A DNA stretch of 64,000 bases from contig JACAVV010000022.1 in NCBI GenBank assembly GCA_024648695.1, positions 15,001 through 79,000 of the forward strand, given 5' to 3'. The translations under genes and the position numbers were made by a program. Positions 45,196 through 49,791 of the stretch are shown piece by piece. This stretch comes from Nitrospina sp. (lineage in GTDB: Bacteria > Nitrospinota > Nitrospinia > Nitrospinales > JACRGP01). How positions within the stretch are numbered: position 1 is the stretch's first letter; each line of letters starts with the position of its first letter. The notes beneath the pieces were generated by a model. It saw only the letters and a program-made list of their open reading frames with translations. It had not been told where the DNA came from and ran no database searches.

Positions 45196-46176
45196 ATGAG
45201 CCAGGTCTTATCTCAAAATGAAGTAGACGCCTTATTACGCGGAGTCAGCGAAGGCGCCATCGAAACGGAAGCGGAAGCGCCCGAAGAGGTTTCCGGTGTT
45301 GTTCCCTATGACCTGACCAGTCAGGACAAGATCATTAGGGGCCGATTACCCACTCTGGATATTATAAACCAGATGTTTTCGCGCCTGTTCCGAACCTCGT
45401 TTTCCACTTTAATGAGGAAATCTGCAGACGTTAGCACCGTGTCGACGGATACCGTAAAGTTTGGTGAGTTCTTGCGTTCGCTTCCGGTTCCTTCCAGTTT
45501 GCATGTATTTAAAATGGAGCCTTTGCGAGGGTTCGGGTTGATGGTGGTGGAAAGCCGATTGGTGTTTTCCCTGGTCGATACCTTTTTTGGTGGCACCGGA
45601 ACTTCGGAGTATAAGGTGACCGGGCGCGACTTCAGTTCCATCGAAATTCGTATGACCAAGAATGTGGTGCTGACCGCCTTGCAGGACCTGGAAAAAGCCT
45701 GGAAGCAGGTGCATCCCATCACGACCAGTTACGTTCGCTCAGAGGTCAATCCGCAATTTGCGGCCATCGTTCCTCCCACTGATGTTGTGTTGGTCATCCT
45801 GTTTGATATCGAAATGGAGGGCTCGTCTGGGACGATGACCTTGTGTATTCCCTACGCCGCGATCGAGCCCATATTGCCCAAACTGAAAGCACAGTTCCAG
45901 AGTGAACAAATGGAGGTCGACCAGGTTTGGGTGAAACGCTTGCGTCAGGAACTCATGCACACGGAAGTGGAAGTTTTGGTCGAATTGGGAAAAACTGACA
46001 TCACTCCATCCACGCTTTTGAGTTTAAAAGTGGGTGATACCGTGATGTTAGGAAATGACGTGTCCGATCCCCTGGTGATGAAGGTACAAGGGATCCCTAA
46101 ATACACAGTGTTTCCCGGAGTGTCGCGTGGGACCAAGGCGGCGCAGGTTTCGGGAATTTTAAAAAAGGAAATGTGA
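45196..46176 (+). CDS. fliM: Flagellar motor switch protein FliM
   Basis: FliM forms the C-ring and binds phosphorylated CheY. The N-terminus SQVLSQNEVDALLRGVSEG is the CheY-P binding peptide. The middle CheC-like domain (DIINQMFSRLFRTSFSTLMRKSADVS, GLMVVESRLVFSLVDTFFGG) and the C-terminal SpoA domain (LMHTEVEVLVELGKTDITPSTLLSLKVGD) follow. The 326-residue length is normal. The stop codon overlaps the region just before fliN, so the two are tightly coupled. Confidence 0.97.
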   Translation: MSQVLSQNEVDALLRGVSEGAIETEAEAPEEVSGVVPYDLTSQDKIIRGRLPTLDIINQMFSRLFRTSFSTLMRKSADVSTVSTDTVKFGEFLRSLPVPSSLHVFKMEPLRGFGLMVVESRLVFSLVDTFFGGTGTSEYKVTGRDFSSIEIRMTKNVVLTALQDLEKAWKQVHPITTSYVRSEVNPQFAAIVPPTDVVLVILFDIEMEGSSGTMTLCIPYAAIEPILPKLKAQFQSEQMEVDQVWVKRLRQELMHTEVEVLVELGKTDITPSTLLSLKVGDTVMLGNDVSDPLVMKVQGIPKYTVFPGVSRGTKAAQVSGILKKEM

Positions 46177-46181
46177 CCGTT

Positions 46182-46559
46182 ATGGCTGAAAATGCAAAAG
46201 GCGATGATTTTGAATCATTGGACGATTTAGGCGATTTACAGGAAACCCAATCTCCCGACGATATGATGGGAGAGGATGAAGACGGCCAGCTTCTTGATGC
46301 GAAAAACCTGGACCTGATCCTTGATATTCCGCTCACCGTTACGGTCGAACTTGGCCGTAGCAAAATGCTGATCAACGATCTCCTTCAATTGAGTCAGGGT
46401 TCCGTTGTGGAACTTACGAAACTTGTGGGGGAACCTTTGGAGGTGTTGGTCAACCAGAAGCTCGTGGCGCGTGGAGAGGTTGTTGTGGTCAATGAGAAAT
46501 TTGGCGTCCGTCTGACCGATATCGTATCGCCCATGGAACGCGTGCAGTCCCTGTCCTGA
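46182..46559 (+). CDS. fliN: Flagellar motor switch protein FliN
   Basis: FliN builds the lower C-ring with FliM. After an acidic N-terminal segment of about 40 residues, the SpoA domain is clear: NLDLILDIPLTVTVELGRSKMLINDLLQLSQGSVVEL, then PLEVLVNQKLVARGEVVVVNEKFGVRLTDIVSP. The ATG at 46182 is preferred. A GTG at 46173 would be only 2 nt from the GGAA site and overlaps the fliM stop. The next expected gene, fliO, is displaced by about 1.9 kb through an inserted hrgA-like cassette. Confidence 0.94.
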   Translation: MAENAKGDDFESLDDLGDLQETQSPDDMMGEDEDGQLLDAKNLDLILDIPLTVTVELGRSKMLINDLLQLSQGSVVELTKLVGEPLEVLVNQKLVARGEVVVVNEKFGVRLTDIVSPMERVQSLS

Positions 46560-46828
46560 TCGATTCGATTCCCACCGGTATAAGCCAGCCTAAAGGCGAA
46601 AGAGGCGGTACAAGTTGTAAGTTGAATACAATTTTTACCATCAAGCTATACCTAGGTACGGTGTAGATTCCCAGAACAGCATATCTCACAATGAAGGAAT
46701 TATCCACCGGTGTCCAGATCTTTTGGGGGAACCCTATACTTGGTACAACACTTTTCTTAACCTTTTTGGTTTGGAAATATTGTTTGTAATTAAAAAGCGA
46801 CCTTGATTAAATATGGCCAATAATATAC

Positions 46829-46846
46829 CTGACTTCATTAAGTCAG
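46829..46846. other. Palindrome abutting the left inverted repeat of the hrgA cassette
   Basis: CTGACTT (46829-46835) and AAGTCAG (46840-46846) are a perfect inverted repeat with a CATT spacer. It directly precedes the left 22-bp repeat at 46847, so it may be an operator for the hrgA-like gene or part of a recombination site. Confidence 0.45.
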
Positions 46847-46868
46847 TAATGTACTTGACACCTTTATA
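46847..46868 (+). repeat. Left 22-bp inverted repeat of the hrgA cassette
   Basis: This sequence, with core TTGACACCTTTATA, recurs in reverse complement at 47935-47956 with 21 of 22 positions equal. It contains a TTGACA that could serve as a -35 element for the hrgA-like gene; the matching -10 is weak. The only mismatch is C to T at the eighth position. Confidence 0.75.
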
Positions 46869-46915
46869 AACAGGCCGAAGTTTTATCGAATGCGTGGACA
46901 AAGTAGGAAGAGGTT

Positions 46916-47833
46916 ATGAAACTTAATTTAAGCAATACGGTTACAGATTTTCTAAAAAGCAATGCTGAGAAAAAATATACCGCACGAGAAATTGCTAAAT
47001 GGGTATTTGAAACATACCCTGATGAGTGCAGTGCAAAACAAAAGCGCTCCGAGGCAACAAAAAACCCTTTGGATTCTGATGCGGCACTATTGCAACAGAT
47101 TATTCGTGAAATCAGTGCTCAAAGACCTCGTCTTCAAAAAAACAATGGAAATATAAAAACGACAGAAGGCCGTCCGCGTAAATATTATTACACAGAGCAA
47201 AGCGATGCGGATGAAGTTGAGGAAATTGAAGAAAAGAGCGCTGTCACTCAAGCAATCCCTCTTGAGCATTCCCTTTACCCAATGTTGATAGAATATCTCA
47301 ATACAGAGCATGGCTTGCATGCAAAACGAATTGATGAAAAGAGGTCAACAAATAATCGTGGCCCAAAAGGAAATGAGTGGCTGTATCCCGATTTGGCAGC
47401 ACTGGAAGATTTGGCCTCTGAATGGTCAGGTAAAGTTACCGAATGCGCTAAACAATATGGTGATAAAAAAGCCAAGCTGTGGAGCTTTGAAGTTAAGCGC
47501 TTGATCAATATCTCAAATGTGCGCAGTACATTTTTTCAAGCCGTAAGTAATTCCAGCTGGGCAAATTTTGGATATTTGGTAGCCGCAGAGCTTGAGGAAA
47601 GGGCAAAAAAAGAACTACGCATGCTTTCAAGTTTGCATGGCATCGGTTTTATCCTGCTGGACACAGAAACCCCATCAGAAAGCCAAGTCATGATCCCAGC
47701 CAGAGAGCGTCACGACCTTGATTGGGAATCCATTAATCGCCTTACAGAAGCAAACAAAGATTTCTCTGATTATATCGATGAAATCAGTGATTTTTGCTTA
47801 ACTGGTAAAACGAAGAAGCAGGATTGGGATTAA
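46916..47833 (+). CDS. HrgA-like protein (COG2958)
   Basis: The 305-residue protein matches the HrgA/COG2958 family. It has an N-terminal winged-helix-like domain (TVTDFLKSNAEKKYTAREIAKWVFE). The C-terminal conserved part includes KGNEWLYPDLAALE, LWSFEVKRLINISNVRSTFFQAVSNSSWANFGYLVAAEL and GFILLDTETP. Members are often found near restriction-modification genes; the first was named for replacing a restriction gene in Helicobacter. Here no methylase or nuclease is adjacent. The gene is richer in A and T than the surrounding flagellar genes and is framed by inverted repeats, so horizontal insertion is likely. Biochemical function is unknown. Confidence 0.8.
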   Translation: MKLNLSNTVTDFLKSNAEKKYTAREIAKWVFETYPDECSAKQKRSEATKNPLDSDAALLQQIIREISAQRPRLQKNNGNIKTTEGRPRKYYYTEQSDADEVEEIEEKSAVTQAIPLEHSLYPMLIEYLNTEHGLHAKRIDEKRSTNNRGPKGNEWLYPDLAALEDLASEWSGKVTECAKQYGDKKAKLWSFEVKRLINISNVRSTFFQAVSNSSWANFGYLVAAELEERAKKELRMLSSLHGIGFILLDTETPSESQVMIPARERHDLDWESINRLTEANKDFSDYIDEISDFCLTGKTKKQDWD

Positions 47834-47867
47834 AGTGAAAGCTGAAAAATGAGGAAATCTATTTCTT

Positions 47868-47939
47868 ATGGCTTGGAAGAAAGACGATGAAGGACGCGAT
47901 GTCTATCAGCAAATCAATAAGGTTTTGAGTGATGTATAA
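47868..47939 (+). CDS. Short frame (23 residues) after the hrgA-like gene
   Basis: MAWKKDDEGRDVYQQINKVL continues for three residues and stops inside the right inverted repeat. It could be the truncated start of a second cassette gene cut by the repeat boundary, or chance. Only a weak AGGAAA lies upstream. No family is recognisable. Confidence 0.3.
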   Translation: MAWKKDDEGRDVYQQINKVLSDV

Positions 47940-47956
47940 AGGTGTCAAATACATTA
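47935..47956 (-). repeat. Right 22-bp inverted repeat of the hrgA cassette
   Basis: Reverse complement of 46847-46868 with one mismatch. The two arms enclose 46869-47934, which holds the hrgA-like gene and the 23-residue frame. No direct target duplication is obvious outside the arms. Confidence 0.75.
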
Positions 47957-48136
47957 TTAGCTAAAAATCAGCTTCAAAAATCAAATATCTATTTCGAGTG
48001 GTTTATTGATTATAAGTTCGAATCAAAATTTTCAAAAGCTTTTCGAAAGATTTGTTGGTGCTGGCCTTATGCTTGGTAATAAAGTGTATCCATGGGAAAG
48101 GTTGGATTTTGCTCTAATTCGAAATTAGCTTAAAAG

Positions 48137-48240
48137 GACACTATTAATGTAGGCCTTCTGCCTTATTATTTCACCTCACCTCACCTCACCTCACCTCACC
48201 TCACTCCTCTCTACTGAGGAGAGGGGGTCCCGTTATCCAT
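48137..48240 (-). repeat. Composite interspersed repeat, copy C
   Basis: The reverse complement reads GGATAACGGGACCCCCTCTCC, a hairpin, an expanded GGTGA run, AATAATAAGGCAGAAGGCCTAC and GTGTCC. This is the same order of blocks as copy D at 51628. It lies between the hrgA cassette and fliO. The rest of 47957-48438 is non-coding and I see no other gene there. Confidence 0.65.
48171..48205 (+). repeat. Pentanucleotide microsatellite (TCACC)6-TCACT
   Basis: Six perfect TCACC units are followed by one TCACT, inside copy C of the composite repeat. Slippage-prone, but about 235 bp upstream of the fliO start and not in a coding frame. Confidence 0.9.
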
Positions 48241-48438
48241 ATCTGAGGTTGATTAAATTCAATCCTACCATTGTTTTTAACTCTATCGTTCCGGTTCTCC
48301 ATATAATCTCAGAAATTCTGCCGGCATAATCCGATTTAAAACCCTGATCTCCACAAAGGTACAGCCTTTGCATTTGTCATTATTGCATAGAAATGTGCCG
48401 GAAAATTGACGCTTTGGAACTTTTGGGAAGGACGGGTT

Positions 48439-49791
48439 ATGGGTGCTTTAAGAGTTATGGGGATGACCTTATTTTTCGTTTTATCAAGTGTTTTGATAGG
48501 GCAGGCTTCTACAGACCGTTTGCATTTGTTGAACAAGCTGGAATCGGTTCAGGTGAAAAACGGTTCCGAGCAAATGAAGTTTCTCTTGAAGTTCAGGAAA
48601 AATCTGACGGAATATCCCGAACCGATGTTCTTCGACCACTCCATTCAACTGGAGTTTTCAAATGCCTGGACGCATCCCGCCAAACAATCCATTGATACCG
48701 GTCAAACCTTCATTTCCGAGGTTTTTTTAGCGCAGTTCAATCCGGAAACCTTGCGGGTTCGGCTCATCTTCGGTGATTCCCCGCTGGTTTTTGACGACAA
48801 CTTCCACATGGAAATTTATGGGAAAACGCTGGAAGTTCGTCTTGATAAGCAGTCCTGGGCACAACCCAATTCACCAAACAGGTTCCAAAAGGCCAGTCGA
48901 TCAGAGCCAACGCAGGAAGTGTTGCCCGAGGATTCCATACCCGATCTCGATACCTTTCTGGCGAAAATGAATGAGGGGGTTGATTCCGTTGAAACCTATG
49001 AAAAAGCAGAAACCGAGCCCTTACGGATTGAGATGGAGGATGAAGATCAATCTATTAATCGTTCAACGGTTGACGATATCCCGGAAGAGCAATCAAAGCC
49101 TGTTTCAATAAGAGCCGGTTTGGAAGATTCCCGCGGTTCATCTGATACAAATCAATCCGGTTTTACCGGTGATCCCTCTACAAACAAACCCAAGTTACTG
49201 TTTCAACGTGATGGAGAGGAAGCGGGTTCTGCTTCTTCAGGTTTGGCCGGATCCGGATTGAAAATGTTTTACGGCTTGTTCCTGGTTCTCGGCATGATGT
49301 TCATCGTTTTCCATATTTTAAAGAAGACCATTTTTAAAGGATCCTTCATGGGAAGCAAGAGCAATCTGGTCACCGTGCTGGGCACCGGCTATCTTGGACC
49401 TAAAAAAATGGTGATGATGACCGAAGTGGCGGGTGAAATTCTGGTTCTTGGTGTTTCGGGCGACTCCATTACCATGCTCACAAAGATCACCGATCCCGAA
49501 AAGGTGCGGCGCATCAAACAGAACGGAGTTGAAAAGCCGATTAAAAGAGTCATGAAGAAAGTGGCTGAACAACAGGCCAAACCTAAACCGGAAAAGTTCA
49601 AACAGGCACAGACCAAACAGGCGACAGAAAAGGTTGATTCCAAAGTAAACAATGCGAACTTCCAAAAATATCTCAAACAGCAAAAACAGGCAGGAGAGGA
49701 GGCAAACGAAGCGGAAGAGGATGTGCAATCTGTTGAGGATGTTACGAAACTGATCCGTCGCAACCTGGATAAAATTCAAAGGGCCTCATGA
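48439..49791 (+). CDS. fliO: Flagellar biosynthesis protein FliO with large N-terminal extension
   Basis: The C-terminal half (from about residue 270) has a membrane helix (LKMFYGLFLVLGMMFIVFHIL) followed by the FliO core NLVTVLGTGYLGPKKMVMMTEVAGEILVLGVSGDSITMLTKI and a Lys/Gln-rich tail. FliO helps assemble the FliPQR export gate. The N-terminal 250 residues have a signal-like segment and a periplasmic region (LHLLNKLESVQVKNGSEQMKFLLKF, TLRVRLIFGDSP) that resembles an AMIN-type domain. Typical FliO is far shorter. The ATG at 48439 has AAGGA 6 nt upstream; it overlaps fliP by 4 nt at the end. Confidence 0.85.
   Translation: MGALRVMGMTLFFVLSSVLIGQASTDRLHLLNKLESVQVKNGSEQMKFLLKFRKNLTEYPEPMFFDHSIQLEFSNAWTHPAKQSIDTGQTFISEVFLAQFNPETLRVRLIFGDSPLVFDDNFHMEIYGKTLEVRLDKQSWAQPNSPNRFQKASRSEPTQEVLPEDSIPDLDTFLAKMNEGVDSVETYEKAETEPLRIEMEDEDQSINRSTVDDIPEEQSKPVSIRAGLEDSRGSSDTNQSGFTGDPSTNKPKLLFQRDGEEAGSASSGLAGSGLKMFYGLFLVLGMMFIVFHILKKTIFKGSFMGSKSNLVTVLGTGYLGPKKMVMMTEVAGEILVLGVSGDSITMLTKITDPEKVRRIKQNGVEKPIKRVMKKVAEQQAKPKPEKFKQAQTKQATEKVDSKVNNANFQKYLKQQKQAGEEANEAEEDVQSVEDVTKLIRRNLDKIQRAS

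Follow-up and report, generated by a model that had tools for sequence, protein, structure and literature searches.

Outward-facing ends of a Y1/HUH transposase family flank a foreign hrgA gene between fliN and fliO in a Nitrospina genome

Composite transposons are built from two elements that bracket a passenger, and elements of the IS200/IS605 type are moved by single-strand HUH/Y1 chemistry. One little-studied group of single-strand transposons, the TIRtrons or TIRYT group, was described with the TIR motif GGGGWSAS (Di Nocera et al. 2013, PMC3733652) and corresponds to the TnpAY1 subclass 2.1 / 2.1.2 of Quentin et al. (2018, PMC6006769), a paper whose available text places no REPs near subclass 2.1 genes. 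The accessible parts of the literature using the TIRYT name describe these transposases as genes with flanking repeats only, and cargo goes unmentioned there. Here we describe a locus in a 64,000-nucleotide stretch of Nitrospina sp. DNA (the window), which we read, with a probability of roughly 60%, as the remains of a composite insertion in which two TIRYT-family elements surround a foreign hrgA passenger. The features of the locus, in window coordinates, are:

46173..46559, plus strand: fliN, the upstream flank (FliMN_C, 6.9e-25)
46560..46846, no strand: left flanking DNA, GC 0.39
46847..46868, minus strand: left arm, a TIRYT-family TIR, reading outward on the minus strand as TATAAAGGTGTCAAGTACATTA
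46916..47833, plus strand: hrgA-like gene, 305 aa, intact (predicted protein domains: winged-helix-like, residues ~1-95; PD-(D/E)XK-like nuclease, residues ~115-300)
47868..47939, plus strand: 23-codon open reading frame, with its stop codon within the right arm
47935..47956, plus strand: right arm, a TIRYT-family TIR, reading outward as TATAAAGGTGTCAAATACATTA, its internal hairpin decayed
48002..48090, minus strand: 3'-terminal remnant of a TIRYT (Y1/HUH) transposase gene, recognised against the C18 copy
48358..48372, plus strand: sigma54-like promoter motif GGTACAGCCTTTGCA (GG-N10-GC) preceding fliO, assigned on its motif
48439..49791, plus strand: fliO, the downstream flank (PF04347, 4.4e-10), with its ATG at 48439

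The two arms are inverted copies with one mismatch in 22 positions, just as a first-pass annotation of this DNA had described them, they lie ~1.07 kb apart and the match can be extended to 31 nt at 84%. No other 22-nt inverted pair with one mismatch or fewer within 2 kb occurs in the whole window, none of 20 shuffled windows held such a pair, and the arm pattern with up to three mismatches is found at two places in the window, which are the arms themselves (expected 0.00). A 7-bp DNA hairpin, CTGACTTAATGAAGTCAG, lies outward of the left arm and is stable on folding. The same annotation had proposed searching for the arm sequence in this genome and its relatives, and that search led to the TIRs of a Y1 transposase family: within the genome the arm sequence recurs in a cluster on contig C18 and beside a gene relic on C9, and repeats of related form border copies of the family in relatives. 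Weak matches on C25, C12, C9 (position 36808), C20, C23 and C56 were discarded as apparent chance hits or coding sequence. The C18 cluster contains the only Y1_Tnp match of the genome, a protein of 321 aa that also carries Bac_DnaA_C (Y1_Tnp 1.3e-13, Bac_DnaA_C 3.2e-11) and reads ..NHYHLLV..YIHLNP..; in the window, such a transposase survives as a C-terminal relic only. Its ends bear the arm motif, as TAAAGGTGTCAAGTCTTTTATTGAC 5' of the start codon and as a degenerate copy 3' of the stop; the related transposase genes of other genomes (11 examined, all of the same order) are likewise flanked by inverted repeats, of the form TAAAGGGGTCAAGTCTTTTCTTGAC, which mostly lie ~50 nt upstream of the ATG and no more than ~60 nt downstream of the stop codon. 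The clearest of the copies have ends able to fold into a 5-6 bp DNA hairpin (GTCAAG...CTTGAC) beside a G-rich stretch, with modest folding z-scores. The transposase family to which the arms belong as TIRs is of the Y1/HUH kind, has a DnaA-like C-terminus and matches the TIRYT/TIRtron group. At several elements (L225, L228, L163 and L166) the outer end of the TIR is doubled, with TAAAGGGGTCA repeated within 8-17 nt, which suggests that insertion happened more than once at, or next to, TIRs already in place.

The arms do not face as the ends of a single element would. Intact copies have the TAAAGG end outermost and the hairpin directed inward to the transposase, whereas in the window the TAAAGG ends point toward hrgA and the TIRs run outward, both arms leading away from the gene. 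hrgA therefore lies between two transposon ends and not inside one element, and the outward direction relative to the intact relatives identifies the arms as inner ends, one from each of two flanking elements. The small mobile cassette originally proposed survives in that the arms are indeed mobile-element ends, but a self-contained cassette whose outer ends are the arms was rejected as the main reading because intact element copies show them facing the opposite way. The nature of the right-hand element is given by the relic beside the right arm, which matches the 3' end of the intact C18 transposase gene at 74% DNA identity over 89 nt (E 9e-12), the relic frame reading WIHFITKHKASTNKSFEKLLKILIRTYNQ before its stop and the C18 transposase VIHFKTKEKAGIDKSFGRLLKKMSRK before its own. 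The supposed lack of a transposase thus holds for an intact gene at the locus, but a decayed 3' end is present and an intact relative resides on C18. Left of hrgA no transposase relic is recognisable and the element there is known by its TIR alone; the left flanking DNA, for which a search for relatives detected none, is probably a decayed element or insertion debris together with some native gap. GGTGTCC at 46709 was also weighed as the boundary of a left-side element, and as an outer end it proved too weak; on both sides, outer TIRs amount to weak candidates (46709 and ~48137-48147), none of them convincing. The 23-codon reading frame may be the start of a gene that the right arm truncated, and no parent or relative of it was found among the fetched loci, plasmids and phages. 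Further right, window positions 48169-48206 carry short tandem CTCAC units followed by GAGGAGAGGG, and the wider stretch around them has further matches within this genome, on contigs C1 and C9.

Comparison of the fliN-fliO junction with that of ~20 relatives, also proposed in the first-pass annotation, shows it to be much shorter there. In nearly all of them the gap carries GGTACrrCcTTTGCA ~60-90 nt before the fliO ATG, and the distance from the fliN stop to this sigma54-like motif is ~0.1-0.3 kb, against 1.8 kb in the window, leaving ~1.5-1.7 kb of extra DNA, which exceeds the 1.07 kb arm spacing; the insertion is larger than the arm-to-arm stretch by ~0.5 kb. Across nearly all relatives of the order, a conserved TTTTTTGACGC stretch follows the GG-N10-GC motif before fliO. 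The hrgA-like gene and the 23-codon frame do lie between fliN and fliO, on which the reading frames and flanking domain matches agree, but the two genes are not normally directly adjacent as had been assumed, since in relatives 0.1-0.3 kb separates them and includes a conserved promoter-like motif. Nor does the insertion split a flagellar operon: the sigma54-like site before fliO is conserved and kept, and as the insertion lies upstream of it, the operon should stay uncut. The gap between fliN and the sigma54-like fliO promoter would be a permissive landing site for foreign DNA, one that spares the flagellar genes.

The passenger is a horizontally acquired, restriction-associated gene and a foreign singleton in its phylum, present in 1 of 77 phylum genomes and absent from the 76 others, which bears out the foreign origin first suggested for it; its AT-richness is mild only (GC 0.41, against 0.45 for the window and 0.50 for fliM). 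We found homologues of HrgA at 80 loci, at 41-68% identity and nearly all full-length, mostly in Proteobacteria and also on some plasmids, under the RefSeq name 'HrgA protein'. An HsdR-like protein cluster lies upstream of the homologue in 31 of these 80 loci, and HsdS- and HsdM-like clusters also occur, which makes type I restriction genes the customary company of these homologues; all three clusters are named by sequence appearance and position, not by family search. Here, hrgA stands outside any R-M operon and the sole HSDR_N match of the genome is on a different contig. A short frame just before hrgA (KQAEVLSNAWTK, then a stop) was considered as a possible C-terminal remnant of an upstream R-M gene and rejected, as it showed no match to the upstream proteins of the homologues. 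The model of full HrgA reached pLDDT 85.8 and that of the C-domain pLDDT 88 and pTM 0.86; the best PDB match of this domain was NucC (E 6e-4, probability 0.95, at a low TM-score), followed by NucS/EndoMS, BsoBI and PspGI, likewise at low TM-scores. The C-domain alone was more informative than the whole protein, for which the fold search returned nothing below 1e-3. P158-D159 and E192-x-K194 are invariant in an alignment of 30 HrgA members. The resemblance of the N-terminal part to a winged helix in the fold search is weak; a link between HrgA-type N-termini and the HARE-HTH domain has been proposed. The likeliest function of HrgA would be that of a restriction-tied nuclease, and we infer that it may cut DNA. 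A putative defence role is plausible; as a known defence system the locus was rejected, PADLOC holding no matching model.

The outward layout is not confined to this locus. On C18, ~10 nt separate the intact element's TIR from the beginning of a truncated Na/H exchanger gene (Pfam 1.6e-22), and another outward TIR bounds that gene on its far side. One relative (L225) carries a 2.4 kb passenger flanked by the 5' ends of two divergent transposase genes, and in another three outward pairs surround Rhs gene clusters (L222, L223 and L230). A census of neighbouring TIR sites within 10 kb in 13 genomes, made with one search pattern plus the sites of this genome, gave 10 outward pairs, some of which adjoin intact elements, one inward pair lacking a transposase, four intact elements and 13 tandem pairs. 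The excess of outward over inward (10 vs. 1) has a one-sided binomial p of 0.006, which supports but does not prove capture, since the census is small and rests on one pattern, and outward pairs are expected between adjacent complete elements. The relative with the Rhs clusters (G006; L229 1261-10978, L222, L223 and L230) has TIRYT TIRs that border Rhs/YD-repeat clusters and immediately precede orphan tip-like reading frames, one with a PIN domain (9e-6), and has six TIRs on one strand in ~10 kb. In the Nitrospina genome itself, a 160-bp MITE-like inward TIR pair (L018:6612-6773) lies between a truncated Na/H exchanger and an Rhs gene.

In the reading that we prefer, two TIRYT elements would have bracketed a foreign, probably proteobacterial, DNA fragment carrying hrgA, and the whole composite would have landed in the space that separates fliN from the fliO promoter, leaving the inner TIRs of both flanking elements as the arms of today. 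The outer halves would have decayed or been deleted, with the right element's transposase gene reduced to its final ~29 codons. Excision and insertion may have been single-stranded and carried out by a transposase acting in trans, a mechanism consistent with the ends of the intact family, which can fold as short hairpins after a G-rich guide (GGGG/GGTG followed by GTCAAG...CTTGAC). The composite is probably immobile now, and the still intact hrgA probably codes for a DNA-binding nuclease that partners, or replaces, a restriction enzyme. That the arm pair moved together as one unit is our tentative inference: the locus shows neither convincing outer TIRs nor a target-site signature, and the genome no second copy of the arm-hrgA-arm unit. 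The missing recognisable outer ends are the weakest link of the composite reading. What had first been observed at this locus is confirmed, and its interpretation is supported in part.

The outer ends also weigh in the rival readings. We consider it unlikely, although less so than the other alternatives, that hrgA arrived by another route (homologous or illegitimate recombination) and that two short TIRYT-derived MITE-like elements inserted later on either side of it. The permissive intergenic gap would allow such later insertions, this genome has solo TIRs besides its MITE-like pair, tandem solo TIRs are common in relatives and outer TIRs at the locus are not proven; however, an outward pair within 1.1 kb would arise among seven randomly placed sites in this genome with p ~0.003, and the outward layout recurs around other passengers. 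That the transposase instead recognises the outward TIR pair and moves the DNA between them, as an inside-out cassette in line with the first-pass annotation's proposal, we hold to be improbable: every intact transposase-bearing copy is oriented the opposite way, inward, and no cassette with the same passenger was seen at two places, even though passenger DNA tends to begin at the TAAA end of the TIR and the pattern used reveals no obvious outer TIRs for the outward pairs of relatives at L222, L223, L224, L226 and L230. The stable hairpin after the left arm would also suit a transcription feature with no tie to transposition, such as a long-range or bidirectional terminator or attenuator, but at other places in the genome the arms have matches among transposase-linked TIRs, one of the arms has a transposase relic beside it, their spacing is over a kilobase and an Rfam search of the locus gave no match, which together make this reading barely credible.

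In several genomes of a single order, TIRYT ends enclose foreign genes, which points to cargo movement by single-strand transposases. Beyond the composite reading of this one locus, and as a speculative suggestion that we would ourselves bet against, outward TIRYT pairs might be a general route by which stray DNA is captured and spread in this order, whether in the form of composites or of inside-out cassettes that one resident HUH transposase mobilises in trans; the DNA so captured might, just as tentatively, include restriction-associated genes, Rhs toxin-tip clusters and others.

Like a composite transposon, the locus has a TIR to either side of its passenger, joined on the right by the remnant of a transposase gene; it differs from IS200/IS605 elements and composite transposons in that its ends are near-perfect inverted repeats, its outer ends are not identifiable and its movement is putative. 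With the TIRYT/TIRtron group, as far as the available text of its descriptions goes (PMC3733652; PMC6006769), the family shares a probable Y1/HUH transposase with a Bac_DnaA_C C-terminus, flanking TIRs in place of GTAG REPs and TIRs that are also scattered through genomes; the published motif GGGGWSAS is matched at 7/8 positions by GGGGTCAA of the relatives and at 6/8 by GGTGTCAA of this genome. Unlike members of that group, the window locus lacks an intact transposase and has outward ends with a foreign passenger between them, and since its repeats flank hrgA facing outward it is not itself a TIRtron. HrgA is homologous to the RefSeq HrgA proteins and shares the association with R-M loci of the HrgA family (Ando et al. 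2002, cited in PMC4615327), yet in contrast to that family, as portrayed in the available part of the citing paper, the window hrgA is an orphan outside any R-M operon. Its predicted fold and PD...ExK residues are those of the PD-(D/E)XK nucleases.
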